A DNA stretch of 32,808 bases from Candidatus Hydrogenedentota bacterium (GTDB lineage Bacteria > Hydrogenedentota > Hydrogenedentia > Hydrogenedentales > SLHB01). This document shows, piece by piece, positions 2,629 to 32,747 of the stretch; the first letter of the stretch is position 1; the number at the start of each line of letters is the position of its first letter. The notes beneath the pieces are model-generated. The model saw nothing but the letters and a program-made list of their open reading frames with translations, was not told where the DNA came from and did not search any database. The position numbers were made by a program, and so were the translations under genes. The stretch is from positions 1-32,808 of the forward strand of contig JADLCA010000447.1 of the NCBI GenBank assembly GCA_020847495.1, given 5' to 3'.

Positions 2629-4425
2629 TCAGCCGCCTCCCCAGTCCACTTCGTAGATCTCCACGATCTCCCGGCCGCGCGCCTTCGGGCGCTCGATGTC
2701 AAAGCGCTGGAGCAACTGGAAATGCGCCGTGTCCGCACGCCAGGCTTCAAGCACCTCTCCCACGCCGGTTTCGCGAAACGCCGGTGACTCCGTAACATAC
2801 GCCTCGGGATACAGCAGGTAGCGAATGCCATGCGCGCGCAGCCAGTCCAAGCGCTTCGCGCTATCCATCGGCACCAGCGGCTTCAATGCTTCAAAATTCA
2901 CGAAGCTGGGCCCTTCGTAATAGTAGCCGCGCGGGTCAAGCGTAAGCAGCACTCCGCGCGTGTCCAGGTGTTCGTTTCCCCACGCAAACGCCGAATACCG
3001 TTCCACGCGGCGCGACAGATACGAGTCTCTGCTTTCCAGTCCCACCGCCGCCGGCAAGCGAATCATGGCCAGTGCGCCCGCGAGCGCAATGCCCACGGCA
3101 TAGCACCCGCCCAGCACCAGCCATACAAGCGGTTTCAAGCGCGACGCGCGGCACGCCGACACAGCGCCCACAACGATCATCGGCGCGAAAAACGGCGCGA
3201 GATACCGCGCGAAGCGCCGGAAGAAGAACATGCAGGCAATACCCGCGCCGCTGAATGCGCCCACGCGCCGCGCCTGTGCTCCGCCTGCTATCAACCCTGG
3301 AATCCCCAGCAGCAAGAGCGCGAGCCCGGGCGAGTCCATCCATCCGCCGTATGCCCGCGGTTGCAGCACAACGCGAAGGGGAAACAGGATGAAGTCGAGC
3401 GCACCGGTGCCTTGAATCGATGAATGATTGAGGACCAACGCAGCGTCCACATCCGGCACGGTCGCGGGCCCAAACCACTGTGAAAACAACGGGTAGAAGG
3501 GATTGCCCGAGACGGCCGCGCTCCGCGCGAGCCACGGGAACGCCCCCAGCGTTGCGTACATCGAGAACAGCGTGACCGCGCGCAAGCGGCCCGTGCCGCG
3601 CTCCACGAGCGTCATCCCCGCCAACAGCGCGCAAGCTAGGTAGCCGGTGTGCCGCACTCCGCATGACGAGCCCGCCAGCAACCCGGCCATCAGCAGCCAT
3701 GGCGTATGGCGGTCGTGCCGCCAGGCCAGCCATGCATTCAGCGCCGCGAGCGTTATGGCCGTGAACGCGAGGTCCAGCGACGGGTTTCCTGCCTGATCGA
3801 TGAAAAGCGGCATCGTCGCAACCAGCGCCGCCGCGATGAGCCCGCAACGCCTCCCCTCCAATCGCGCGCCCATCGAGTACGCCATGCCGCACGCCAGCGC
3901 CGCGAACAGCCAGCTTACGAGGGTCATGCTGCGCTCGCCCTCGTAGATTGCCACAGCATAAAGGGTATGCATCAAGTGCGGATACGCGGAGTAATTGTTG
4001 CCGTCCACCAGCGCGATCTGTCCCGTGCGCGCGTAGTGCGCAGGCAATGCGGCGTGGGCCACGCCGGCATCCCATCCGGTCACTGGGGCAAGCGCGCAGA
4101 TGAAGGTCATGAACAACACGCAGACAACAACGGCCAGCGATACGCGTTCGAGCCAATCGAGCGACGCCCTCACACCGCCGCACACGATCCACCCGCGCCG
4201 CGCGGCAAATGCAAGATGCACGGCACCCACGGCCGAAACGCCTGCCAGGAACCACCACGCCCCGCGCAGCGCCAGACTTCCAAACACCAGGGCCAGCAAG
4301 GCCGCTGCAATCAGGCCGATCATCACCCGGTAAGACAGACGCTCAACCCCGCCCGCGGCCGGGACAAAATGCGTGGTCCACGTCCCCAGTGCGAATGAAG
4401 CGAGTAGGAGAACGATGATACTCAT
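2629..4425 (-). CDS. Polytopic membrane protein, GT-C (GT39/PMT-like) glycosyltransferase-like
   Basis: This is a 598-residue protein with about ten to twelve hydrophobic helices through residue ~455 and a soluble C-terminal domain. After the second helical block it has TGWDAGVAHAALPAHYARTG, which matches the position and style of the first luminal loop of GT-C enzymes: an acidic residue, then a H/Y-L-P-x-A motif. Such enzymes use polyprenyl-phosphate sugars outside the membrane. ATG 4425 is chosen. The track uses GTG 4437, four codons earlier, and neither has a strong ribosome site. It is first in the cassette with the methyltransferase and GT2. The assignment to a specific GT-C family is an inference. 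A general polysaccharide-polymerase-like role is the alternative. Confidence 0.7.
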   Translation of the reverse strand: MSIIVLLLASFALGTWTTHFVPAAGGVERLSYRVMIGLIAAALLALVFGSLALRGAWWFLAGVSAVGAVHLAFAARRGWIVCGGVRASLDWLERVSLAVVVCVLFMTFICALAPVTGWDAGVAHAALPAHYARTGQIALVDGNNYSAYPHLMHTLYAVAIYEGERSMTLVSWLFAALACGMAYSMGARLEGRRCGLIAAALVATMPLFIDQAGNPSLDLAFTAITLAALNAWLAWRHDRHTPWLLMAGLLAGSSCGVRHTGYLACALLAGMTLVERGTGRLRAVTLFSMYATLGAFPWLARSAAVSGNPFYPLFSQWFGPATVPDVDAALVLNHSSIQGTGALDFILFPLRVVLQPRAYGGWMDSPGLALLLLGIPGLIAGGAQARRVGAFSGAGIACMFFFRRFARYLAPFFAPMIVVGAVSACRASRLKPLVWLVLGGCYAVGIALAGALAMIRLPAAVGLESRDSYLSRRVERYSAFAWGNEHLDTRGVLLTLDPRGYYYEGPSFVNFEALKPLVPMDSAKRLDWLRAHGIRYLLYPEAYVTESPAFRETGVGEVLEAWRADTAHFQLLQRFDIERPKARGREIVEIYEVDWGGG

Positions 4426-4790
4426 GGCTGCCCGCACGATATCACGGCCCCTGCGGAAAGAAAAGACTCGCGCTTCCGCTTCGTTTCATTGGACGTTTTT
4501 GAAGCGCGGCGCAGTCAAGCCACTGCCAGAATGACCACCCCCGGGCTCTCAAAGAGTGACGATGGACGCGAGACGTTCCCCCTTCTCGGGAATGACGCAA
4601 CAGGCAGACCATGTGCAGATCGACAAACGGACGCGCAACCCTGATACTGTCCCCCCGTCAGGAGGTGTCCGTGAACTGCCGCCTTGTATTCGGTTCAGGC
4701 ATTGCGGACAATCGAACGCGTATATGCGGCTACGCTGCGTGGTCTGCCGTGTGGCACGGACTGCGATTCAAACAAACCGGAGGACGGCCC
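4426..4790. other. Intergenic region between divergent genes; no gene seen
   Basis: It separates the minus-strand GT-C-like gene from the plus-strand DinB-like gene, so it must hold promoters for both. No strong -35/-10 pair was recognised. The short plus-strand ORF starting at 4556 lacks coding character. The DinB frame stays open back to 4611, with a second possible GTG start at 4671 (see the DinB entry). Confidence 0.5.
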
Positions 4791-5291
4791 GTGTTTCGAT
4801 CAATTGAGGACTTTCTGGCGACGTGGCGTCATGAGCAGGACGCGACTCACACCCTGTATGCGAAGTTGACGGATGCCTCCCTTGCGCAGCCAGTAGTGGA
4901 AGGCGGGCGCACGCTCGGGTTCATTGCCTGGCACACGGTTCAGACGCTGGGCGAGATGATGGCCCGCGTGGACCTGAAGGTCGATGCGCCCAGCGAGCAT
5001 GAGCCGGTTCCCGCGCACGCCGCCGACATCGTCGCAGCGCTGGACCGCGCGTCTGAATCGCTATTGGAGCAGATCAAGGTGAAGTGGTCGGATGCGACGC
5101 TGCTGGAAGAAGATGACATGTACGGCGAGCGGTGGAAGCGCGGCACGACACTCCATGCGCTGGTGGCGCACCACGCGCATCATCGCGGACAGATAACGGT
5201 GTTGATGCGGCAGGCCGGCATCGCGCCCAGCGGGGTGTATGGGCCTGCGAAAGAAGAGTGGAAGGCGTTTGGGATGGAGCCGTTGCCGTAA
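4791..5291 (+). CDS. DinB/YfiT-type four-helix metal-binding protein
   Basis: This 166-residue protein is of usual DinB size. DinB-fold proteins are small four-helix bundles that bind a divalent metal through three histidines and include thiol transferases and damage-inducible proteins. Here the histidines are His48 in IAWHTVQ, and His127 and His131 in HHAHHRGQ, followed by the family's conserved GQ and a proline-rich C-terminal tail. Start choice: GTG 4791 is preceded by GGAGGA at a 6-base spacing and gives a typical N-terminus (FRSIEDFLATW). GTG 4671 also has AGGAGG at 5 bases, but it would add 40 residues with no family resemblance. The substrate is unknown. Confidence 0.85.
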   Translation: MFRSIEDFLATWRHEQDATHTLYAKLTDASLAQPVVEGGRTLGFIAWHTVQTLGEMMARVDLKVDAPSEHEPVPAHAADIVAALDRASESLLEQIKVKWSDATLLEEDDMYGERWKRGTTLHALVAHHAHHRGQITVLMRQAGIAPSGVYGPAKEEWKAFGMEPLP

Positions 5292-5354: not shown

Positions 5355-5442
5355 ACATCCCCCTCGACCGTGCGGGCCTGCCCCCTTCAAAGGGGAACCT
5401 TGTGCGCGCGCCCTTCGGGCCGCGCGTTTTTGCGGCCCATGG
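5355..5442. repeat. Family B palindromic repeat, partial copy (B1)
   Basis: It starts with ACATCCCCCTCG and contains TGCGGGCCTGCCCCCTTCAA-type sequence, a CCCTTCGGGCCGCG hairpin and GCGGCCCA. The order is the same as in the left part of B2 (25851-26032). The inverted right end seen in B2 and B3 is not present here. Just to the left (5325-5355) lies a degenerate CACGGAC-type repeat. It is 3' of the DinB-like gene. Confidence 0.75.
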
Positions 5443-5465
5443 CGTTCGTTTAATCATCCTGAAAA

Positions 5466-5588
5466 CGGCAGTTGAATGGGACTGATACCGACTTTCGCGT
5501 AGGCTTTGCGCGCCGAGACTCATCTCTCCCGGCAGCGAAACACGGTGTCTCTCCCTCGCACGTTAAACCCGAGCGCGTTCAACTGCCG
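5466..5588. repeat. Family C inverted repeat with outer terminal repeats (C1)
   Basis: Outer ends CGGCAGTTGAA (5466-5476) and TTCAACTGCCG (5578-5588) are exact inverted repeats. Inside are hairpin arms GGGACTGATACCGACTTTCGC-like (5478-5498) and its imperfect inverse GCGAAACACGGTGTC-like (5535-5555). Its right edge is 9 bases from the stop codon of glgC on the minus strand, as in copies C2 and C3, which also directly follow minus-strand stops. It may fold in the 3' end of the mRNA. Confidence 0.8.
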
Positions 5589-7882: not shown

Positions 7883-7930
7883 GATGGCGTCTCATTCTCC
7901 GTCAGCGGACGGCGCAAGTCAAGGACTGGG

Positions 7931-7974
7931 GGTCGGACGGATCGGTCCGATCCGTCCGATCCGTCCGATCGGTC
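7931..7974. repeat. CCGATCCGT tandem repeat (copy 2)
   Basis: About four head-to-tail units of roughly 9-10 bases (GTCCGATCC type) sit in the divergent gap between the UbiA-family gene and yebC, upstream of the predicted yebC promoter. The same unit appears, more degenerate, at 563-603. It could be a simple-sequence expansion or an array of protein-binding sites. The sequence cannot decide between these. Confidence 0.75.
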
Positions 7975-7991
7975 TGAAATCTGTTTGCGCG

Positions 7992-12746: not shown

Positions 12747-14348
12747 TCATGGCTGTTCGCGGGGATCCATAGCGGAATCGGGGGAGCCGGTGGGCGCGGC
12801 CGCGTTTGCGGGGAGAGCCGCTTCGGGGGCATCCAGGAGGCCGGAGGCGCCGCTATCCACGGGCAACGCGCGCTCGGGGGGGAAGAGGCGGCGGACCACG
12901 TCGCTCATGGGGGCCTGCATGATTTGGGAACGGTGACCTTCGACCTCGCGCAGCAGCGGCTCCAGAACCTGATCGACGCGGAGGTCCGAGGGCTCGCGGC
13001 CCGCGTCCCGCAAGGCGGCGACTACATTCCCGATGGTGATTTTGTCGAGGGAACGGGCCGGGGCGAAGGTGATGGGCTCGCCCGCGCAACGCCGGACGAG
13101 GCCAGCCTCGTCCAGCTGGCTCAAGGTCTCGTTGAGCAAGCGCAGGGGGACATTCCATTCCTCGGCGGCTTGGTCCGCGGCGAGGCCGGACTGGCCGGTT
13201 TCGAAGCGGCGGGCGACTTCCAACATGGCGCGCAAGGCGACGGCTTCGCGATAGCCGTGGCTGGCCCCAGCCGCGAGGCGTTCCATCGCAAAGGTCTTTT
13301 CGTTCTGGTAGGCGAAGGTCAGTTCCGCGCCAAAGAGCAGGATGGTCCAGCTCAGGTAGATCCAGATAAGCAGCAGCGGGAACAAGGCGAAGGTGGAGTA
13401 GACCATGCTGTTGCGGCTCAGGCCGTATTGCAGACCGAAATAGGCTGCCGAGGTCAGGCTCCACAAGGTGCCAGCAACAAACCCTCCGAGCAGGGCATAG
13501 CGCCATTTGACCTTGGTGTTGGGAACGAGCGCGTACAGCGCGGTGAAGGCCAGTGATATGACCCCGAATTGCAGAACGCGAACGCCATACGAAAACCCGC
13601 CGAGACGCTCCACAAAAGACGAACTGCCCAGGGCGGCGGTCAGGCCGATGATACCCATCACGACAAACGGCAACAGGATGGTCACCATCATGTAGTCGCT
13701 GAACATGCGGTACCACGAGCGGGTAGCCCGCAATCCCCAGATCGAGTTGAAGGACGATTCGATGTTCTGCATGAGCCCGAAGATTGCGGTGAGGATGAAG
13801 ATCAGGCCCAGTGTTCCCAGTGCCTTCGGGTTGGCATTCCGGCTCGCAGTGTCCAGGAGCCAGTCGATGGGGTTCTGATAGGTGGCGCCATTTGTAGTCA
13901 CGGCCCCGGCTGCATCCGGGGTGGCGCCAGTCCCCGGAGCCGATGGGCTCCCCATGGTTTCCGTAAGGCCCGGCACGACCAGATCGATGATCTCTTTCAA
14001 CTGGCGGTTGGGGTCGCCCGAGGCCTCAATATGGAGTTCCTTGCCGCCGGTCCATTGTACCGCCCACTCGGCAATGCTCGGGCCGAGGTCGAACTGCTGG
14101 ATGACGAAGTACATCACCGCCAGAAACGGTACGAGCGAGAGGAGCGTGGTATACGTCAGCGCCGCGGCCCGCAGGAGCAGGGCGTCCTGCACCATGTTCT
14201 TCATGAGCAGAATTATGACGCGCACCTGCTTGATGACGAACCCGTAGGGGACTTCCTCGCCGGGGCGGCCGACGTACCACACGTCGTGGGTGACGAAGCG
14301 CCTTCCCCGGTCCAAGGCCTCAAACGCGCGCTGCACGTAATCTCTCAT
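12747..14348 (-). CDS. YihY/BrkB-family inner membrane protein with C-terminal winged-helix-like region
   Basis: At 533 residues it is longer than the ~300-residue core of the family. The membrane core (~45-345) has the family features LLRAAALTYTTLLSLVPFLAV, IWGLRATRSWYRM, PNTKVKWRYALLGGFVAG and YSTFALFPLLLIWIYLSW, with about six helices. Between the first two helices is an extra-membrane insert of ~80 residues rich in Gly/Ala/Pro (SAPGTGATPDAAGAV). The C-terminal ~150 residues include a winged-helix-like stretch (AAEEWNVPLRLLNETLSQLDEAGLV) followed by a disordered, proline-rich tail. The family was once called ribonuclease BN, but that is not supported. Its transport or membrane role is unsettled. 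ATG 14348. Confidence 0.9.
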   Translation of the reverse strand: MRDYVQRAFEALDRGRRFVTHDVWYVGRPGEEVPYGFVIKQVRVIILLMKNMVQDALLLRAAALTYTTLLSLVPFLAVMYFVIQQFDLGPSIAEWAVQWTGGKELHIEASGDPNRQLKEIIDLVVPGLTETMGSPSAPGTGATPDAAGAVTTNGATYQNPIDWLLDTASRNANPKALGTLGLIFILTAIFGLMQNIESSFNSIWGLRATRSWYRMFSDYMMVTILLPFVVMGIIGLTAALGSSSFVERLGGFSYGVRVLQFGVISLAFTALYALVPNTKVKWRYALLGGFVAGTLWSLTSAAYFGLQYGLSRNSMVYSTFALFPLLLIWIYLSWTILLFGAELTFAYQNEKTFAMERLAAGASHGYREAVALRAMLEVARRFETGQSGLAADQAAEEWNVPLRLLNETLSQLDEAGLVRRCAGEPITFAPARSLDKITIGNVVAALRDAGREPSDLRVDQVLEPLLREVEGHRSQIMQAPMSDVVRRLFPPERALPVDSGASGLLDAPEAALPANAAAPTGSPDSAMDPREQP

Positions 14349-14394: not shown

Positions 14395-14547
14395 GACACA
14401 GGCGAGGGCGCCTGTGCCACACGCGCTTGCCTTGCTTTGATTGCTTCTACTCTTCGTTCTGTTTCTGGTTTGTCCACAAGCACCAAGAATTCCGGATAGA
14501 CAAAGGACTGGAGATAGACGTGTGGCACAGGCGCCCTCGCCTGTGTC
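14395..14547. repeat. Family A inverted-end element, single unit (A2)
   Basis: It is 153 bp with exact inverted ends of 28 bases, each carrying the hairpin CACAGGCG-AGGG-CGCCTGTG or its complement plus GCCACAC. The inner sequence differs from A1 and A3 but shares CGCGCTTGC near the left end and a GGTTTG stretch in the middle. It lies between divergent genes, 46 bases from the YihY-type start. Confidence 0.88.
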
Positions 14548-14604
14548 TTGATCCGGGCCGAATTCAGCGGATTGGACCGAGCAAACAAGAGATGCGAACT
14601 GCTA

Positions 14605-14633
14605 TTGACCCCGCCGTCGTTGCGGGGCATGAT
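14605..14633 (+). promoter_or_regulatory. Possible promoter of the GxGYxYP gene
   Basis: TTGACC (14605-14610) and CATGAT (14628-14633) are separated by 17 bases and lie about 40 bases before the ATG at 14674. Each hexamer departs from consensus. Confidence 0.35.
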
Positions 14634-14673
14634 GGGCGCGCATTGAGACGCGAATGCCAAAGAGGACCCTTCC

Positions 14674-16440
14674 ATGAATCTGCTTCTTGTGATTGCTGGC
14701 GTCCTGTGCGCGGCGGAGCCCGGACTCGTCCGCTTTGATCTCGAGAAGTGTCTCGCGGACCTGCCAGATGATTCCGTACTGCGCTACGACGTGGTGAAGA
14801 TGACGGCGTCCTTGCAGGGCGTGGTGAATCGTGACGGGCCGCGTTTGGCGGTTCGCTTCCTGCATGGCGCAGGCACCAACATCGACGACTACTGGTTCAC
14901 GAAGCTGCGCGAAGGCTGGTTGAAAGACTTGCCGGTCGAGGAGGTGAACTCCCTCGAAGACCTGCTTTCCCGCTTCGCGGGCGATATCGACGGCGTCGTG
15001 GTGTGGGACCCGGCCGTCGTCGCAACGGCGAATGTGGCCGCGACTGTGTGCGGTGTGGAAGGCTGGCTACCCGTGCGCGCGGATTCCGCGTTGTATGCGC
15101 GTATCGTCGAAGGAGGCCCGCACCTGCCGGTGCGTTTGTCGCTGGTGGGCAAGTTTGACGGCTCGATCTCGGGCAGCGCCAAGATCGACGCGTACCAGTG
15201 GGCCAAGGAAAACTATCTGGACAAGGGTAAGTGCCACCCGGCGCTCTTGGCGTACTTCATCGACGCGTACACGCAGCAACCCGGCACGCCGGGTTTTCAC
15301 TACCCGGATCTATTCAATGCGACTCTTGCGAACCACGATTACTACATCGCAAACCGCGCGTTCTTCTTCGATCTGAGCCCGTGGGCCGATGAAGCGCCCG
15401 TCGATGATCCGCGGCAGCCGCTCGGCGCGGATAAGCAGATGCTCACCGCGATTCTGCGCGACCAGGTTGAACGGAATGCAGGCAAGGCCTTCACCACGGT
15501 CGGCGGCTTCGTGCCTTGGAACCTCAAGTACACGTCGCACGGGGCGGCAGGAGGCAAGCACGAGCCGGTGCCGAGCGAATGGGAGTATGCGGGGATTCTC
15601 TCCGCGCACAACGCGATCATGGACGCCGATGCCCTCGGGCTCGCCTGCCTCACCAACGCGTCCGCCTACATGCACTTCCCGTTGCAGCCGCGCTATGAGC
15701 AGAACGCGCGCCCCGTGCCGGGCGAACTCGAGCCCAAGACCTACGTGCTCGTGTACATGGGCGATTACGACTCCGCGGCCTGGCTGTCCAGCAACATCCC
15801 GTCAATTTGGGACGACCCCGCGCGCGGCCAGATGCCGATGGCGTGGGCCTTCAATCCGAATCTTGCGGCCCGCGTGCCGTACGTGTTCGATCATGTCTAC
15901 CGCACGAAGACGGCGAATGACTGGTTCATTGGGGGTGACTCGGGTGCGGGCTATCTCAATCCCAACCTGCTCACGGGTCAGCGCCTTGGCAGCGGCGTGC
16001 CGGATGCGCTCGACATGTGGGTCCAGCACAATCTCGAGTCGTATGGGCGCTTTGACTACGACATCACCGGTTTCGTGATCAATGGCTTTCACGGGGACAT
16101 GCCGCTTGCGGTGCAAGAGGCGTATTCGCGCTTCTCGCCGCGCGGCGTCGGCATGCAACTGGGATTTGCGCAACCGGTCGTGAACGGCACCCCATTCCTG
16201 CGGCATGTGAGCGACATCTACCCGAAACGCGACAAACTCGGCGAGACCGCCGCGGAGATGGTGCGCTTCGCGAAGCCGGAGAAACCACAGTTCCTCATCT
16301 ACCGCATGATTCTCCAACGGCCCGGTACCGTGATGGCCGTGCGCGACCACTTGAACGCGGATTACCCGGACGCGCGCTGGGAGTTCTGCGATCCCTACAC
16401 CTTCTTCGACCTGTACAAGCGATCGCTCGGCGCGGAGTAG
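14674..16440 (+). CDS. GxGYxYP-family secreted protein, putative carbohydrate-related
   Basis: The 588-residue protein has a short N-terminal hydrophobic segment (MNLLLVIAGVLCAAEPG) that reads as a signal peptide. Near residue 423 GGDSGAGYLNPNLL matches the GxGYxxP signature that names the family (GxGYxYP_N and _C domains). VYMGDYDSAAW and WAFNPNLAARVPYVFD are neighbouring conserved blocks. Members are found with glycoside hydrolases and are presumed to act on carbohydrates. No reaction is established. AGAGGA lies about eight bases before the ATG. It is convergent with the SGNH/MBOAT set, with only 10 bases between stops. Confidence 0.85.
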   Translation: MNLLLVIAGVLCAAEPGLVRFDLEKCLADLPDDSVLRYDVVKMTASLQGVVNRDGPRLAVRFLHGAGTNIDDYWFTKLREGWLKDLPVEEVNSLEDLLSRFAGDIDGVVVWDPAVVATANVAATVCGVEGWLPVRADSALYARIVEGGPHLPVRLSLVGKFDGSISGSAKIDAYQWAKENYLDKGKCHPALLAYFIDAYTQQPGTPGFHYPDLFNATLANHDYYIANRAFFFDLSPWADEAPVDDPRQPLGADKQMLTAILRDQVERNAGKAFTTVGGFVPWNLKYTSHGAAGGKHEPVPSEWEYAGILSAHNAIMDADALGLACLTNASAYMHFPLQPRYEQNARPVPGELEPKTYVLVYMGDYDSAAWLSSNIPSIWDDPARGQMPMAWAFNPNLAARVPYVFDHVYRTKTANDWFIGGDSGAGYLNPNLLTGQRLGSGVPDALDMWVQHNLESYGRFDYDITGFVINGFHGDMPLAVQEAYSRFSPRGVGMQLGFAQPVVNGTPFLRHVSDIYPKRDKLGETAAEMVRFAKPEKPQFLIYRMILQRPGTVMAVRDHLNADYPDARWEFCDPYTFFDLYKRSLGAE

Positions 16441-16450
16441 ATTGCGCTCG

Positions 16451-17449
16451 CTACTGGCGCAGCGCCTCGGCGAGGCGGTCGGCCACGGCCTGGCGTCCGG
16501 TGTCGCGCAGGTGCTCATCGGGATGACTGCCGCGGATGAAGCAGGTTCCCGGCAATGCCTCGGACATGTCGAGCAGTTGCACGCCCCGCGCCGCGGCCGC
16601 CTGTTTGAAGTGCGCGATGTTCTCGCGTGCGCGTGCCCGAAAGCGGTCGCCGAGATAATGCTCTCCCGTTTCCATGTCCAGCGGCGTGACGTAGGGCAAT
16701 GCGCGAATCCCCGCGCGATTCAGCGCGTCCAACGCACGTCCGAACTCCACGAGGGTCTGGCTCTCCGGCGTCAGCGAATACATGTAGAAGAATGTGACGA
16801 GCCGGGCACGCTGCTCCTCCGTGGTGCGGGCCTCGGCATGCGGCTGGTAACTGCCCACTGGTCCGAGATTCGCGAAGCCATCCAGTACCGGTAGTTTCTG
16901 AAAGTCTTCTGTGAGAACAGGCCGGAACGTGAAAGCCTTGAATGACGCCAGGGGCCTGTAGGCCACGTGAAAAAGGACGTAGTCGTGACGCAGGAACAGC
17001 AGCTCCTTGTCAAAGTACCGGTAAGGCAGGGTCTCGAGTTGCGGCGCCACGAGACGCATGTTGATTGGAAACACGACAGTCCCGACGGGGACGTCCTTCT
17101 CTTCGAGATACGCGGCAACCGCCTCGTAGAAAGTCAGATTGCATCCCCCGTCGTAGACGTGAACGACACGAAGGTCCGGGGCGGCGCGCTGCAGCATCTC
17201 CGGCGTGCTGGAGAGATCCGCATCGCCCTTGCCCGTGGCCATGGTGCTATCTCCTAGAAACAACACGTCCGCAGGGTCATCGCGAAGCTCCATGATCTTG
17301 AGCACAGCTGGCGGGATGTCGCCCGGCCACTCCAACCAGTAGATTGCCATCTGCCCCGCGCACACGAGCGCAATCAACACGGCGCAGCGCGCGAAGAAGC
17401 GCAACCCTGCGCGGCGATCAGAACTGGAAGTAGATGAATGAGGCTTCAT
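16451..17449 (-). CDS. SGNH-hydrolase-like membrane-anchored protein, MBOAT partner
   Basis: The 332-residue protein has one N-terminal transmembrane segment (~17-36, ARCAVLIALVCAGQMAIYWL) and an exported domain. FLGDSTMATG at residues 64-73 is the block I serine region of SGNH/GDSL enzymes (Ser68). GSHPDEHLRDTGRQ near the C-terminus is a block V-like D..H site. This layout matches AlgJ/AlgX/PatB-type partners, which move an acyl group from the MBOAT membrane protein onto an exported polysaccharide or peptidoglycan. The ATG lies within the MBOAT 3' end (32-base overlap), so translation is probably coupled. The substrate is inferred only from context. Confidence 0.82.
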   Translation of the reverse strand: MKPHSSTSSSDRRAGLRFFARCAVLIALVCAGQMAIYWLEWPGDIPPAVLKIMELRDDPADVLFLGDSTMATGKGDADLSSTPEMLQRAAPDLRVVHVYDGGCNLTFYEAVAAYLEEKDVPVGTVVFPINMRLVAPQLETLPYRYFDKELLFLRHDYVLFHVAYRPLASFKAFTFRPVLTEDFQKLPVLDGFANLGPVGSYQPHAEARTTEEQRARLVTFFYMYSLTPESQTLVEFGRALDALNRAGIRALPYVTPLDMETGEHYLGDRFRARARENIAHFKQAAAARGVQLLDMSEALPGTCFIRGSHPDEHLRDTGRQAVADRLAEALRQ

Positions 17450-18884
17450 TCACAACCCCCAAGTTCATGACGATGAGACACAGTAAGGCATAGGCGGGAT
17501 AACGCACCCATGCGGGACTCTCGTTGATTACGCGATCAAACCAGGGCTTCTCCGAGGCCCATTCGCCGATAAGGAGCACGGCGAGCGGCCAGCATATCGT
17601 GATGAGATTGTCCGGGTAGATGCGCAGGCGCGCTTCAAGCGCGAGCCAGCCTCCCGGACCCAGGAAGGCGTCCCAACCCTGGAATGAGCCCACACAGATG
17701 TACACGGCCTCCTTGATCGAGCCCGCGCGGAAGAAGACCCAGCCCACGTTGACCAGTGCGAAGGTGACCGCGATCTCGATCGCGGCGCGGACGCGCGGCA
17801 AGCGCGCAAGACCCGTCTTTGCGTAAAGCCACTTACGCGGCCGCGCGGTCCATTGCTGCGCGAGGTAGTAGGCGGCGTGCAGCAGGCCCCACACCACGAA
17901 GGTCCAGTTGGCCCCATGCCACAGCCCGCTGAGTCCGAACACGGCGAGGATATTGACGGATTGGCGGCCGCGTCCGGCCCGGTTGCCGCCCAGCGGGATG
18001 TAGACGTAGTCGCGGAACCACGTCGACAGCGAGATGTGCCAGCGGCTCCAGAATTCCTGGATCGAGCGGGCCGTGTACGGGCGGTTGAAGTTGCGCATGA
18101 GATCGACATTGAGCGTGCGGGCGGTGCCGATTGCGATGTCGGAATAGCCCGAGAAATCGCAGTAGATCTGGAACGCGAAGCAAACCGTCGCAATGATGAG
18201 GATGGGGCCTTCGAAGTGGAAGGGGGTCTCGTAAACGCGATTCACGACGATGGCGAGTCGGTCCGCAATCACCATCTTCTTGAAGAGGCCCCAAAGGATC
18301 AGGCGCAATCCGCTGTACATCAACTCCGAATCAAACGCGAAATGCTGCCTCAACTGGGGCAGCAGCGAACCGGAGCGCTCTATGGGCCCCGCGACCAGTT
18401 GTGGAAAGAAGGTCACGTAGAGGGCGAAGCGTCCGAAGTTGCGTTCCGGTTCTTGTCTTTCGAGAAAGACATCGATCGTATAACTCATGGATTGGAACGA
18501 GTAAAACGAGATGCCCACAGGCAGCAGCAGATTCATCAATGGAATGTCGGCCGGCAGATGCGCCAAGTCGCAGACCCACCCCGCGCTGCGCAGAAAGAAG
18601 TCGAGATACTTGAAGGTGAAGAGCAGGCCGAGATTGGACGACATGCTGAGGATGAGATACAGGCGCCGCCTGCGCGGGTCGCGCGTGGCCCCGAGGGCAA
18701 GCCCGGCCCAATAGTCGATTGTCGTGCTCATGAGGATGAGCACGATGTACGCGGGCTTCCACGCCATGTAGAACGCGTAACTCGCGGCCAGCAGGAATAC
18801 CCACTGCCAGCGCCACGGAAGGGAGAAACATACAATCAGCACGAGCGGGAAGAAGATCAGAAACTCGATACTGTTGAAGAGCAC
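17418..18884 (-). CDS. MBOAT-family O-acyltransferase (AlgI/DltB-like)
   Basis: The 488-residue polytopic protein carries an acyl group, usually acetyl, across the inner membrane for O-acylation of exocellular glycans. It begins MLFNSIEFLIFFPLVL, the standard AlgI-type start, here from GTG 18884. Conserved blocks include LLPVGISFYSFQSMSYTIDV, FFPQLVAGPIER, QIYCDFSGYSDIAIG, EFWSRWHISLSTWFRDYVYI and SGLWHGANWTFVVWG. The histidine of the last block, near residue 320, is the family's catalytic residue. The SGNH-like partner overlaps it by 32 bases. The CgeB-like glycosyltransferase lies upstream on the same strand after 128 bases. It is not certain that the three act together. Confidence 0.95.
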   Translation of the reverse strand: MLFNSIEFLIFFPLVLIVCFSLPWRWQWVFLLAASYAFYMAWKPAYIVLILMSTTIDYWAGLALGATRDPRRRRLYLILSMSSNLGLLFTFKYLDFFLRSAGWVCDLAHLPADIPLMNLLLPVGISFYSFQSMSYTIDVFLERQEPERNFGRFALYVTFFPQLVAGPIERSGSLLPQLRQHFAFDSELMYSGLRLILWGLFKKMVIADRLAIVVNRVYETPFHFEGPILIIATVCFAFQIYCDFSGYSDIAIGTARTLNVDLMRNFNRPYTARSIQEFWSRWHISLSTWFRDYVYIPLGGNRAGRGRQSVNILAVFGLSGLWHGANWTFVVWGLLHAAYYLAQQWTARPRKWLYAKTGLARLPRVRAAIEIAVTFALVNVGWVFFRAGSIKEAVYICVGSFQGWDAFLGPGGWLALEARLRIYPDNLITICWPLAVLLIGEWASEKPWFDRVINESPAWVRYPAYALLCLIVMNLGVVNEASFIYFQF

Positions 18885-19012
18885 CGCGCCCCGCCCCTGT
18901 TGGAAAACATGAACCCGCGAGTGTTCCGGACACCTCCCCGCGCGAATCGCAGCACCTTACCGCAGGCGCGCGCGTGCGCGCAAATCGCGCGGGGGCCGGT
19001 GCGATCTGCGCG

Positions 19013-20689
19013 CTACGGGTAGAAGGGCTGGCAGGCGCGGGCGATGAGCATGGAGTCCTCCGCAAGTGCGCGCGCTTCCTCGTCGCGGCCGGTCTCAGCC
19101 AGCATTTCGCACAGGCGCTCGCGGGGTGCGGCATTCATGGGCTGGCGCGCCATGCCATCGTACAAGGTGGCAATCGCTTCTTCTCTTCGGCCTGAGACCC
19201 ACTGAAGTTCCGCGAGGAGGTCCATGCCGCCGGTATTGTGCGGGTCGAGGAGGCCGGCCTGGGCAAGGTGTTCCTCCGCATGCGACGGCTCTCCCTGGCC
19301 CGCGAGCACATGCGCCATGCGGATGTGCGCTTCCGCGTGGAGCATGGCCAGTGTGGCGGTCTTTTCGGCCACGGCGCGTTGCCACCGGATGAGGAAGGGG
19401 TATCCGCTCGATCCCACCAGATACTGTGGTCCTTCGAGGGACGTGGCGAGCAGGGCCAGATTGAGGCTGTCCACCTCCTGGCTGACGAGCTGGCACGCGC
19501 GCGCGGCGGTGGCGAGATTGAGGGCGCACGGTGCTGAACTGGGTGCGAGGCGCTGGGCCTGGGCGAAAGCCTTCAGGTATCGAATGCGCCGCTGCGCGTC
19601 GTCGCCTGCGTCGCTGTACGCGTTGGCGAGGTGCTGTCCGAGGGAGGTCCAGGCGCGTGGGTCGTTGGGGAGAGCCCTCATCATGTGGGGCAGCAGCTCG
19701 CATTCTATCGCGTGGTACACGTTCCATTGCGAGAAGGCGTACATCGTGAAATCCTGGTACAACCGCTCTTCAGGCGCTAGATCGCGGAACGGGCGGCCGC
19801 TTGAAGGTAACGTCGCGGCGCAGTCGATGAGTTCCGTGAGGCGGTTCTCGCCGGCAAAGCGCTCGACCTTTGCCATCCCCCGTTCGGCGATGGCACTCGC
19901 TTCGCCGGGATGGGCAAGGTAATGGGCGATGCATTCTTCGAAGTTCGCTTGGTTGTACAGCACAAGGTCGCGGGCCGGTTCAAACCAGTTCCTGACTTCC
20001 AGGTTATCTTCTTCGAGCAAGGCCAGAGAACCGCACGCCATCGTCTCGAAGACGCGCAGGTTCAGTTCGCCCCGGATCGAATGATTGAACACGATCCGCG
20101 CACGGCTCAGGAGACGCCCGTAGTCTTCGCCGTGAACCTGCGTCGCGATGACAATGCGATAACGGCTGGAGAGGCGCGCGAGGCGTTCCAGATAGCGGGC
20201 CCTGACCGAATGGGCCGTGTGGTTCAGGTTGCCCACAAAGGCCACGTCGATGTCCTTGGGTTCCGGATAAGGTCTGTGGAACTTCGTGATTTGGGAATAG
20301 AGCGGGAAGAGGTGGTGGGGCGACACGAGGCTGTTCTTCAGAGCGCGCACCCCCGGCGTATCGCATAGCACGGCGTCGTAGCGCGCGAGATTCGTCTCCA
20401 AGAGGGGGTAGAAGACGTTCCAGTCGGACACCAGCGCCACCGTGGGGATTTGCACCTCCTCGATGTGCAAGGGCGGCGGGTGAATCTCGGGCATCCAGCA
20501 GAGAAGCAGGCCGGGCCGCCAATCCCGGCTTATGCGGGAGATGAGGGCCGGAGCGTCTTCCTCGCGCGGATCGTAGCGGTAGTAAGCGTTTTCGAAGTTC
20601 CCGGCGGTCCGCACCTCATGAGGGCCTGAATAGCGGTCCAGGCAGTCGTAGCTGCTGAAGAAGGGCGTGCCATGTGACAATACATTCAT
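19013..20689 (-). CDS. CgeB-like glycosyltransferase with C-terminal TPR-type repeats
   Basis: This 558-residue protein has two halves. Residues 1-~290 resemble the glycosyl transferase group 1 subfamily of CgeB/YkvP type: VALVSDWNVFYP, DIDVAFVGNLN, and the donor-site block FNHSIRGELNLRVFETMACGSLALLEED. Residues ~300-558 are all helical and contain TPR-like stretches such as WTSLGQHLANAYSDAGDDAQRRIRYLKAF, AHIRMAHVLAGQGEPSHAEEHLAQA and LLAELQWVSGRREEAIATLYDG. The track uses a TTG start, but the adjacent ATG 20689 is preferred. It probably glycosylates a surface protein or glycan, with the repeats holding a partner. The target is unknown. Confidence 0.82.
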   Translation of the reverse strand: MNVLSHGTPFFSSYDCLDRYSGPHEVRTAGNFENAYYRYDPREEDAPALISRISRDWRPGLLLCWMPEIHPPPLHIEEVQIPTVALVSDWNVFYPLLETNLARYDAVLCDTPGVRALKNSLVSPHHLFPLYSQITKFHRPYPEPKDIDVAFVGNLNHTAHSVRARYLERLARLSSRYRIVIATQVHGEDYGRLLSRARIVFNHSIRGELNLRVFETMACGSLALLEEDNLEVRNWFEPARDLVLYNQANFEECIAHYLAHPGEASAIAERGMAKVERFAGENRLTELIDCAATLPSSGRPFRDLAPEERLYQDFTMYAFSQWNVYHAIECELLPHMMRALPNDPRAWTSLGQHLANAYSDAGDDAQRRIRYLKAFAQAQRLAPSSAPCALNLATAARACQLVSQEVDSLNLALLATSLEGPQYLVGSSGYPFLIRWQRAVAEKTATLAMLHAEAHIRMAHVLAGQGEPSHAEEHLAQAGLLDPHNTGGMDLLAELQWVSGRREEAIATLYDGMARQPMNAAPRERLCEMLAETGRDEEARALAEDSMLIARACQPFYP

Positions 20690-20804
20690 CAACGATGACT
20701 CTCGATTAAAGCCTGAGGTGACATCCCACTGACTTTCAACGTGTTACCGCGCAATCACCAAACCGTCAATCCGGTGGAATCGCGCTCCATGCGCTTCGAC
20801 ACAA

Positions 20805-20833
20805 TTGACAGGTGGCCCTCTTTATTCTATAGT
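20805..20833 (+). promoter_or_regulatory. Strong sigma70-type promoter of the HDOD gene
   Basis: TTGACA (20805-20810), a 17-base spacer and TATAGT (20828-20833) form a near-consensus promoter about 68 bases upstream of the HDOD ATG. It is the best hexamer pair in the window. Confidence 0.75.
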
Positions 20834-20901
20834 TGATCAGCGGGCATTAGGTAACCTACGGCGCTGACGGAACGCGTTCATAATCGGGGAGTTCAGAGCC
20901 C

Positions 20902-21777
20902 ATGGCAGAGGTGTGGATTTCCGATGTCCGCGAGAAGGTGTGGGCATTAGACGAGGTGGCCACCCTTCCTTCCACGCTGGTGCGCATCCTCTCCGTTGTG
21001 CAAGACGAATCCACGACCGCACTCGACCTCGCAGCGGAGATTTCCGCCGATCCCGCCTTGACGATGAAGATCTTGGGGACCGTGAATTCGAGTTATTATG
21101 GATTCCATCGCCAAATCAACAGTATCCCCGATGCCGTTGTCATCCTTGGATTTGACGAAGTCGAGCGGCTCGCGCTGGCCATTTCCGTAATCAACCTATT
21201 CGGCAGGGACCGCGAGAGCGCGCGGGCCCTGCACATGTTGTGGAGGCATAGCCTGGCGTGTTCGGTGGTGGCCGGCTGCCTCGAAACCCACTTCCGCTCC
21301 AGGCTTGCAAGGGTAAACGGCGCGCACATCGCAGGACTGCTCCACGATATCGGCAAGGCGGTCATCAACCAGTTCTTCCCCGAGGCGGTGGCGCCGGTGG
21401 CGCGGCTGGTGCAGGAAGACGGCCTCACGCTGTGTGAAGCCGAGCGGGAAATTCTGGAGGGCTGCACGCATTGCGAGGTCGGCGCGTGGGTGGCCGAGCG
21501 ATGGGCTCTGCCCAAGGATCTGGTGGAAAGCATTGCCATGCACCACACCCCGGAGTTGGTGCCCCCGGACCATCTGTTGACGCACACCACGCATCTGGCG
21601 GATGCCATCTGCAACCGGGTGGGCATCAAGACCATGAACACCGGTGTGCCCTGTGAAGTCTCGCCGAATCTCTCCCCCGAACTGGACGTGGACAACAATC
21701 TGGTCGCTCAGATCGAGCAGCGTCTCGACAAGCAGCGCGGCCTGATCAGCGCCATGGCCGCTGGCGGAGCCTACTGA
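20902..21777 (+). CDS. HDOD-domain signalling protein
   Basis: The 291-residue protein is a single HDOD domain (about 15-215) with a short tail. LPSTLVRILSVVQDESTTALDLAAEISADPALTMKIL is the standard HDOD opening, with the following NSSYYG and INSIPDAVVILG. AHIAGLLHDIGKAVINQFFP keeps an HD pair, whereas many HDOD proteins have lost it, so residual metal binding is possible. IAMHHTPE follows. HDOD proteins regulate motility, stress and second-messenger pathways, and often pair with response regulators or kinases. Here a hybrid histidine kinase lies next door on the opposite strand, facing it. The start ATG 20902 has only a weak ribosome site, GGGGAG about 11 bases upstream. Confidence 0.93.
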   Translation: MAEVWISDVREKVWALDEVATLPSTLVRILSVVQDESTTALDLAAEISADPALTMKILGTVNSSYYGFHRQINSIPDAVVILGFDEVERLALAISVINLFGRDRESARALHMLWRHSLACSVVAGCLETHFRSRLARVNGAHIAGLLHDIGKAVINQFFPEAVAPVARLVQEDGLTLCEAEREILEGCTHCEVGAWVAERWALPKDLVESIAMHHTPELVPPDHLLTHTTHLADAICNRVGIKTMNTGVPCEVSPNLSPELDVDNNLVAQIEQRLDKQRGLISAMAAGGAY

Positions 21778-21827
21778 CGGGCAACGGACCCTGTGTTTCG
21801 CTGCGCCAGGCCGGACCGGCCGGGAGC

Positions 21828-21845
21828 GCCGGCATCCCTGCCGGC
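21828..21845. repeat. Short REP-type hairpin
   Basis: GCCGGCA-TCCC-TGCCGGC is a perfect 7-bp stem with a 4-base loop, 50 bases past the HDOD stop. Just to the left, ACCCTGTGTTTCGC resembles one arm of family C. It may be a terminator for HDOD transcription or a separate repeat family. Confidence 0.6.
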
Positions 21846-21893
21846 TCTTGGAGAGGCTTCCTCTCGCAAAGGCGCAAAGGCTACTCCAATAGA

Positions 21894-22046
21894 GACACAG
21901 GCGAGGGTGCCCGTGCCACACGCGCTTGCTTGGCCCGCAGGGATTCTCCCCATCTTGCCGTCCTTGGTTTGCACGGAGAATTCAAGCGTTTCAGAGAGGC
22001 GAGGTATGGTAGACGGACGTGTGGCACAGGCGCCCTCGCCTGTGTC
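21894..22046. repeat. Family A inverted-end element, single unit (A3)
   Basis: It is 153 bp, exactly the length of A2. The right end is identical to the A1 and A2 right ends. The left end carries two base changes that weaken its stem (GGTGCCCGTG in place of GGCGCCTGTG). The inner sequence is different but again has CGCGCTTGCTTG and a GGTTTGCAC stretch. It lies between convergent genes (HDOD and the kinase). Confidence 0.87.
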
Positions 22047-22097
22047 CCATTTCCATTTCCCGCAGGCAAGCCTCCGCTCCAGAAGTTAGTGCCATTC

Positions 22098-22175
22098 GGG
22101 ACTGACCCCGTCTTTCGCGTAGGCTTTGCGCGCCGAGACTCATCGCTCTCGGCCGCGAAACACGGGGTCTGTCCC
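22098..22175. repeat. Family C hairpin element (C2)
   Basis: Left arm GGGACTGACCCCGTCTTTCG and its right inverse (22155-22175) pair over about 21 bases with two mismatches. The loop holds TAGGCTTTGCGCGCC, as in C1. Its right edge is 15 bases from the kinase stop codon, so a minus-strand transcript would fold it right after translation ends. Confidence 0.82.
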
Positions 22176-22190
22176 CTCACCCATGACGGG

Positions 22191-24263
<2,073 letters not shown>

Positions 24264-24435
24264 AGGAATAATCGCGCCACGGTCCCCTCCGTACGCAACG
24301 GACTCTCATATGCGTGCGCAGTGCACAACGTCGATGGGCAACGGCCCCCATTCCGCTCGAACGACACGCGGCTTCGCGGGTGTCCCACAACTATCCGACA
24401 TCGTATGTATTCGCAAACACCAATTCAACCTAAAA

Positions 24436-24503
24436 CGGCAGTTGAATGGGACTGACCCCGTCTTTCGCGTAGGCTTTGCGGAGCGAAACACGGGGTCTGT
24501 CCC
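24436..24503. repeat. Family C hairpin element (C3)
   Basis: It begins CGGCAGTTGAATGGGACTGA, as in C1, and carries the arms GGGACTGACCCCGT and ACGGGGTCTGTCCC with a shortened loop. Compared with C2, about 10 bases are missing from the loop. The right edge lies 28 bases from the stop codon of the minus-strand cupin gene. Confidence 0.82.
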
Positions 24504-24531
24504 CTCACCCTGAGCAGCGAGGGCGGATAGG

Positions 24532-25850: not shown

Positions 25851-26032
25851 GAAGAACATCCCCCTCGGCCCTGCGGGCCTGCCCCCTTCGAAGGGGGACC
25901 TTGTGCGCGTGCCCTTCGGGCCGCGTGATATGGCGGCCCACTGCCCCTGTGCAGCCATTGGATGCCGGATTTATCCACAAATATAGTGTTGCAAACGTCC
26001 CCCTTTGAAGGGGGTGTAGGGGGATGTTCTTC
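25851..26032. repeat. Family B inverted-end element, complete copy (B2)
   Basis: The 182-bp element has 15-base inverted ends: GAAGAACATCCCCCT at 25851-25865 and AGGGGGATGTTCTTC at 26018-26032. Internal parts include TGCGGGCC, CCCCCTTCGAAGGGGG (a perfect palindrome) and CCCTTCGGGCCGCG. The same palindrome type recurs near the right end (CCCCTTTGAAGGGGG). It lies between the cupin gene start and the sulfatase stop. Confidence 0.85.
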
Positions 26033-32479: not shown

Positions 32480-32529
32480 TCGCGCCAGAGCATGTGGCGG
32501 CTCACATGGCGCTGGGTGTGTGACTGAAA

Positions 32530-32699
32530 GAACATCCCCCTGCACCCCCTTCAAAGGGGGACGTGCATAACTTCACAGTTATGGATTTGCGGCAATGCTT
32601 GGGGTCGCACAAAGGCTTCGGATCACCGGCATATGAAGGCCCGAAGGGCCTCTTGCGTCCCCCTTTGAAGGGGCAGGCCCGCAGGGCCGAGGGGGATGT
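32530..32699. repeat. Family B inverted-end element, reversed copy inside phage operon (B3)
   Basis: The 170-bp element has inverted ends GAACATCCCCCT at the left and AGGGGGATGT at the right (32690-32699). The right half, read in reverse, follows the left half of B2 closely (TCGGCCCTGCGGGCCTGCCC...), so B3 is inverted relative to B2. An internal GGCCCGAAGGGCC hairpin and CCCCTTTGAAGGGG palindromes are present. It separates the decoration-like gene from the next gene. Confidence 0.85.
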
Positions 32700-32747
32700 G
32701 AGGGCAACCAAGCGGCCCCTGATTCAAATCAACGGAGAACATCGAAC

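Follow-up and report, generated by a model that had tools for sequence, protein, structure and literature searches.

REPINs of about 153 bp and a REPIN-flanked RAYT gene in Candidatus Hydrogenedentota

Here we report a family of dispersed repeats in a Candidatus Hydrogenedentota MAG (6.94 Mb in 800 contigs, 81% complete; G000 below), three members of which lie on the contig analyzed here (C447; the window, 32,808 nucleotides). These elements are very probably REPINs, non-autonomous units of ~153 bp that occur in at least 150 copies and are disseminated by a RAYT encoded elsewhere in the same genome. The family, the pairing of its hairpins, and the RAYT together identify a REPIN-RAYT system, which is of an already known kind and is found here in Hydrogenedentota; no REPIN-RAYT pair for Hydrogenedentota was found in the open-access literature that we searched.

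All three elements of the window (Table 1) are intergenic. A2 lies between the divergent genes of a BrkB/YihY-like membrane protein (12747-14348, minus strand) and a GxGYxYP glycoside hydrolase-like protein (14674-16440, plus strand), and its arms of 31 nt are 100% complementary. A3 and A1 have convergent neighbors, which encode an HDOD protein (20902-21777, plus strand) and a PAS-histidine kinase-response regulator (22191-24263, minus strand) around A3, and ThiG and a glycosyltransferase around A1. The two cores of A1 are 90% identical to each other. Hairpins of the form CACAGGCG-NNNN-CGCCTGTG with at most three mismatches occur eight times in the window versus 0.27 expected, and no Rfam RNA families were found in it. 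The initial annotation had described A2 and A3 as a family of elements of exactly 153 bp with inverted 28-base halves. Their coordinates and lengths hold, and the left arm of A3 carries exactly the two changes reported for it (AGGGTGCCCGTG); the ends are inverted hairpins as described, with longer arms in A2, and the family has to be extended to the three-hairpin array A1.

Table 1. Coordinates of the REPINs in the window and of the REPIN-flanked RAYT gene on another contig of the same genome.
Feature	Contig	Coordinates	Strand	Size	Details
REPIN A2	C447	14395..14547	+	153 bp	Family model E 1.4e-31
A2 left end	C447	14395..14422	-		REP hairpin GACACAGGCG-AGGG-CGCCTGTG + CCACAC; minus strand reads GTGG + hairpin
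A2 right end	C447	14520..14547	+		GTGTGG + hairpin CACAGGCG-CCCT-CGCCTGTG + TC
REPIN A3	C447	21894..22046	+	153 bp	Family model E 4.2e-32; left hairpin with two changes
REPIN array A1	C447	615..891	+		Hairpin-core-hairpin-core-hairpin; degenerate middle hairpin (745-764) common to both units
C237 RAYT	C237	4180-4737		185 aa	REPINs at 3952-4103 and 4746-4898

The window also holds other repeats. One dispersed repeat (GGGACTGACCCCGTCTTTCGCGTAGGCTTTGCGCGCCGAGAC) is present at 5462-5555, 22082-22175, and 24432-24510, and one of its copies is directly downstream of A3. Intergenic short repeats of the GATCCGTCCGATC type were observed at 567-604 and 7923-7978; at the 7937-7949 copy of this type, the sister species described below carries a REPIN array and the window has none. 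A further dispersed family, centered on CCCCCTTCAAAGGGG with ACATCCCCCT ends, is represented by inverted and direct copies at 5355-5439, 25856-25940, 25973-26031, and 32528-32700.

Each copy of the REPIN family consists of two inverted hairpins, each of the form GACACAGGCG-AGGG-CGCCTGTG-CCACAC, that enclose a diverged core. Element length, measured in 43 copies, is 145-155 bp, with 15 copies at 152 bp and 17 at 153 bp (32 of the 43 together), and thus the 153-bp length proposed as fixed is the mode of a distribution and not an invariant. The element is asymmetric, as the subterminal words CGCGCTTGCC and AGATAGAC distinguish its left from its right; the left end reads (AA)GACACAGGCGAGGGCGCCTGTGCCACACGCGCTTGCC and the right end AGATAGACGTGTGGCACAGGCGCCCTCGCCTGTGTC(TT), which gives the element a direction. 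A nearly invariant GTGG, one base off GTAG, directly precedes each hairpin (5') on the core side, and the edge dinucleotides AA and TT, found in 35 and 27 of 42 copies, respectively, lengthen the inverted repeat. Direct target-site duplications of 2-9 bp at the element edges were found in none of the 42 copies. The cores, initially seen as strongly different, are indeed diverged, yet they remain homologous, alignable, and directional, so that each element has a left and a right end.

The end hairpins change in a manner that preserves their pairing. Among 310 REP halves with 26 distinct stems, both-side changes preserving the pair were observed in 13 cells, compared with a mean of 2.9 and a maximum of 8 in 1000 shuffles, figures that serve as a comparison and not as a p-value, since the distinct stems are non-independent. 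A frequent stem variant reads as a C.A pair on one strand but as T.G on its complement, and it is the T.G strand that starts with GTGG, which may hint at the strand that folds in life. For the core, RNAalifold pairs the ends only, with 0 of 26 pairs changed on both sides and a covariation term of 0.2; the possibility that the fold of the core is under constraint was therefore rejected. Divergence of the core looks like ordinary drift and exchange rather than the evolution of a folded core. The earlier suggestion that length or fold is constrained accordingly stands for element length and for the hairpins at the ends, with their compensatory changes, and falls for the core.

Genome-wide, when at most two mismatches are allowed, the pattern GACACAGGCG-NNNN-CGCCTGTG matches G000 at 174 forward and 176 reverse positions, counts in which some near-palindromic hairpins are scored on both strands, versus 0 and 1 for the reversed control pattern. 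A pattern demanding two perfect inverted hairpins retrieved 24 elements with an outer span of 141-155 bp, where random arrangement would give 0.17 pairs per 40-bp spacing window. For nearly all hairpins sampled, a partner in inverted orientation lies 121-133 bp away, with a preferred hairpin spacing of ~128-131 bp. The predictions of numerous copies and of inverted halves paired at a preferred spacing are thus borne out, as is that of a RAYT associated with the same ends (see below). A search with a whole-element sequence model, in which 150 candidates were scored per genome, identified at least 151 copies in G000; for its congener and sister species, Candidatus Hydrogenedentota bacterium SJ408 (G001; assembly 93% complete), the lower bound is 152. 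Each of the two genomes holds both type I and type II copies, which differ in their hairpin stem; G001 has ~120-136 type-I half-matches. The third congener, G002, was considered as an outgroup; its assembly is 72% complete and offers little comparable sequence, and it has no near relative of the RAYT and no family copy, with a single marginal match to the whole-element model. Among 60 relatives screened for the hairpin, it is abundant in G000 and G001 only, with one match in G016, and isolated hairpin matches were found in MAGs of Verrucomicrobia, Acidobacteria, and Chloroflexi. The family avoids long open frames: these cross 42% of elements versus 84% of background segments, an indirect measure of extragenic location.

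The G000 genome has 12 Y1_Tnp genes, one of which, on contig C237, is bounded on both sides by complete REPINs of the family. It lies 76 bp after one REPIN and 8 bp before the other, and the chance that any of the 12 Y1 genes would be so flanked is ~4e-4. Judged by its sequence, the gene is a RAYT with the HUH motif and the single tyrosine of the Y1 domain. Its product narrowly passes the NCBIfam model REP_Tyr_transpos (NF047646; 80.1 bits at a cut-off of 80), the only PDB entry related to it in sequence is TnpA-REP (4er8; phmmer E 5e-4), with the tyrosine aligned, and the motif H83-V-H85 and Y148 are invariant across five RAYTs. The nearest relative in G001 (contig C323, 180 aa, 61-65% identity; NF047646, 89.0 bits) sits between two type II REPINs with the hairpin GAGCACAGCCG-AGGG-CGGCTATGCCAC, whose stem, CACAGCCG/CGGCTATG, is a compensated change relative to type I. 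Another relative, in G008, is located between CGCAGCCG/CGGCTGCG hairpins, and its frame contains one TGA. The change of the hairpin stem thus tracks the divergence of the RAYTs, as is expected for a protein and its site. The assemblies of G000 and G001 each show a RAYT with just one of the two flanking types, and as the C237 and C323 loci are not syntenic, the two RAYTs are probably paralogues. No type-I-flanked RAYT was found in the 93%-complete G001 assembly, and therefore the type-I copies of that genome may not be mobile, or the divergent RAYT may serve them.

RAYTs with other hairpins were also observed. A second RAYT of G000 (contig C322, locus L039, 400-1540; 276 aa; NF047646, 98.3 bits) has near-identical REPINs on either side that belong to a different family, with the hairpin CTGCCTCGCTCGC..GAGCGCGGCAG and hairpin starts 138 bp apart. 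A RAYT relative in Verrucomicrobia (L136, CAIJLV010000053.1, 2109-6578; about 35% identity by tblastn) has the same GTGGCACAGGCG hairpins on both sides, and this unit is in frame within a 1489-aa open frame, as if a unit flanked by REPs had inserted into a gene and left its frame intact.

We propose that the C237 RAYT moves these copies in the following manner. In single-stranded DNA, for example the lagging-strand template, each REPIN end would fold as 5'-GTGG-hairpin-3'; the RAYT would recognize the hairpin together with GTGG, and then cut and join alongside it via the catalytic tyrosine. The unit would be copied or moved into new intergenic sites without target duplication, and the core would serve as a filler whose sequence counts for less than its length. 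Once the unit is inserted, the inverted ends of 28-31 bp could double as recombination points at which cores are inverted, stacked, exchanged, or lost, and RAYT-linked selection, conversion among the hundreds of copies, or both would keep the hairpins.

Comparison with known systems supports the assignment and delimits it. Like the REPINs of Pseudomonas fluorescens SBW25 (Bertels and Rainey 2011, PMC3116915), the unit consists of a pair of REPs in inverted orientation at a constant distance; it is extragenic and present in hundreds of copies, with conserved ends, a less conserved spacer, a RAYT nearby, and both clusters and single REPs. The Hydrogenedentota elements differ from those of SBW25 in the phylum, in the GTGG motif, in size (~153 bp versus 71 bp between the first residues of the GI 16-mers), and in a core without compensatory pairing, which in SBW25 GI spacers is reported to be common (PMC3116915). 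In other REP-dimer families, the spacers vary freely (PMC3733652), and thus we take core pairing to be a trait of the SBW25 type and not of all REPINs. The GTAG-tagged TT-type REP dimers (Di Nocera et al. 2013, PMC3733652) are similar in their tail-tail arrangement with the tetranucleotide inside, in variable spacers of similar length, and in the presence of homodimers and heterodimers; REPs were reported in the same study from the PVC superphylum. They differ in having GTAG where we found GTGG, and some homodimers here are heterodimers at the sister-species site, one whole tip apart. The TnpA-REP/RAYT systems of Escherichia coli, Stenotrophomonas, and Marinomonas (PMC8266576; PDB 4er8) likewise have a Y1/HUH protein beside its own REPs, the perfect-palindrome REPs described here resemble their group 3 type, and in the Marinomonas Mb system a GTGG variant is still cleaved (PMC8266576). 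Those proteins are distant in sequence from the C237 RAYT, which has complete REPINs on both sides.

Thirty G000 REPINs were placed in G001 through both flanks, and most compared sites are occupied in both species. Between the two genomes, the resident elements have undergone inversion, tip swapping, stacking, core replacement, reduction to one hairpin, or loss; no description of in-place changes of this sort was found in a limited search of open-access text. About 13 of the 30 sites have the core of the same copy, about 80-95% identical, against a baseline for unrelated cores (median identity 0.70, 95th percentile 0.77). Two elements are inverted in place (L061 and L050_2692), the latter of which has a similar neighbor, from which it may have been converted. 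Roughly seven sites have a different core within REPIN DNA (L010, L015, L019, L024, L043, L046, and L055; some with ragged flanks), a single hairpin is left in G001 at L053 and L058, and no such hairpin was found at the G001 sites of L001, L030, L062, and A2, among which the surrounding rearrangement is understood at A2 only. The remaining sites have single hairpins, type III hairpins, or ambiguous remains in G001. Arrays with a common hairpin were found at L018/L122 and L045/L155. With respect to the empty sites that were sought in related genomes, the A2 element is absent from G001, but a 2.4-kb gene duplication is present there and the site is not clean; the flanks of A3 fall on two separate G001 contigs. 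At the RAYT locus (C237, 3952-4898), both outermost hairpins are kept at the same positions in G001 (contig C181, L267), where the RAYT and the inner parts are replaced by 245 bp of unrelated DNA bearing a type III-like hairpin.

The 13 same-core elements have 26 ends in G001, of which 19 keep type and register, four are tip-swapped, two are array-joined, and one is affected by a deletion. The swapped tips are of type III (CACAGCCACGCCGCGGCGTGGCTGTG) or its relative; in L013, L049, L057_8100, and the flipped L050_2692, a wholly different tip is found within the same outer bases at one end only, and the core identity is 86-93%. Ends differ at 16 of 532 positions (3.0%) versus 142 of 1167 (12.2%) in cores (p 7e-11 by the Fisher test, which assumes independent positions). 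The former count is a hand recount of the 19 ends keeping type and register, including the identical right end of L029 (L029 RE) and excluding the four tip-swapped ends, the two array-joined ends, and the one end with a deletion; automatic counts into which array-joined, deleted, or mis-registered ends had been mixed were higher (33/504, 6.5%, and 48/588, 8.2%). Some bias remains because the G000 copies were picked for intact ends; each of the 26 G001 ends has been assigned, and thus the contrast was not made by discarding decayed ends.

Several alternatives to the REPIN-RAYT interpretation, or to its mechanism, were considered. MITEs, which derive from a DDE insertion sequence by internal deletion, share its terminal inverted repeats, and move as double-stranded DNA, would likewise have terminal inverted repeats, a small fixed size, and a high copy number. 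The initial annotation had left a choice between REPIN-like and MITE-like elements moved by a transposase elsewhere in the genome, of which the REPIN-like part stands, with a RAYT flanked by the same elements. A MITE with target duplication was rejected given the lack of such duplications; moreover, the ends differ from simple terminal repeats in that each forms a hairpin of its own, with compensated changes, and the only transposase found with the same ends, in a search among Y1 genes, is the Y1/HUH RAYT. We therefore regard a MITE origin as extremely improbable. The elements could also be old REPINs that are no longer mobile, the hairpins of which are kept for a host function such as transcription termination, protection of mRNA 3' ends, or control of supercoiling, a view compatible with the REPIN-RAYT interpretation. 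The conservation of ends over cores at orthologous sites, the occupancy of most sites in both species, and the location of A3 and A1 between convergent genes agree with it. A terminator is unexpected between the divergent neighbors of A2, however, four of the 30 located sites are without such a hairpin in G001, and a family with arrays, solo hairpins, and changed cores is a dynamic one, so that we find a purely host-maintained, immobile family unlikely.

The constancy of the ends could alternatively result from gene conversion among hundreds of copies and not from selection, with tip swaps and core exchange as its visible tracks, which we regard as a serious possibility that falls somewhat short of probable. 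The one-end tip swaps next to cores that are still largely identical, and the sites that retain their ends around a different core, are what conversion would produce. On the other hand, the same core changes would arise if a new REPIN were inserted at a resident REP and a deletion then followed, the hairpin-sharing arrays resemble intermediates of such insertion and deletion, and the direction of change is not polarized without an outgroup. A tentative and rather doubtful extension of the REPIN-RAYT interpretation is that the REP hairpins of this genus are long-lived anchors with an exchangeable filling, on which conversion-like in-place exchange takes place beside transposition: hairpins would stay, or exchange their entire tips, and the intervening DNA would be inverted, receive another core, or, as at the RAYT locus, give way to unrelated DNA. 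This constant shell with changing filling may result from selection linked to the RAYT, from conversion among copies, or from insertion into resident REPs with subsequent deletion.

Because individual copies can be paired by site between two congeners, the fate of resident copies becomes separable from their spread, which single-genome studies cannot achieve. If ends persist under changing fillings, either selection or conversion would maintain the REPs in place, and a few more genomes could distinguish the two. RAYTs with matched REP variants, type I and the compensated stem change of type II, would be usable for tests of specificity.
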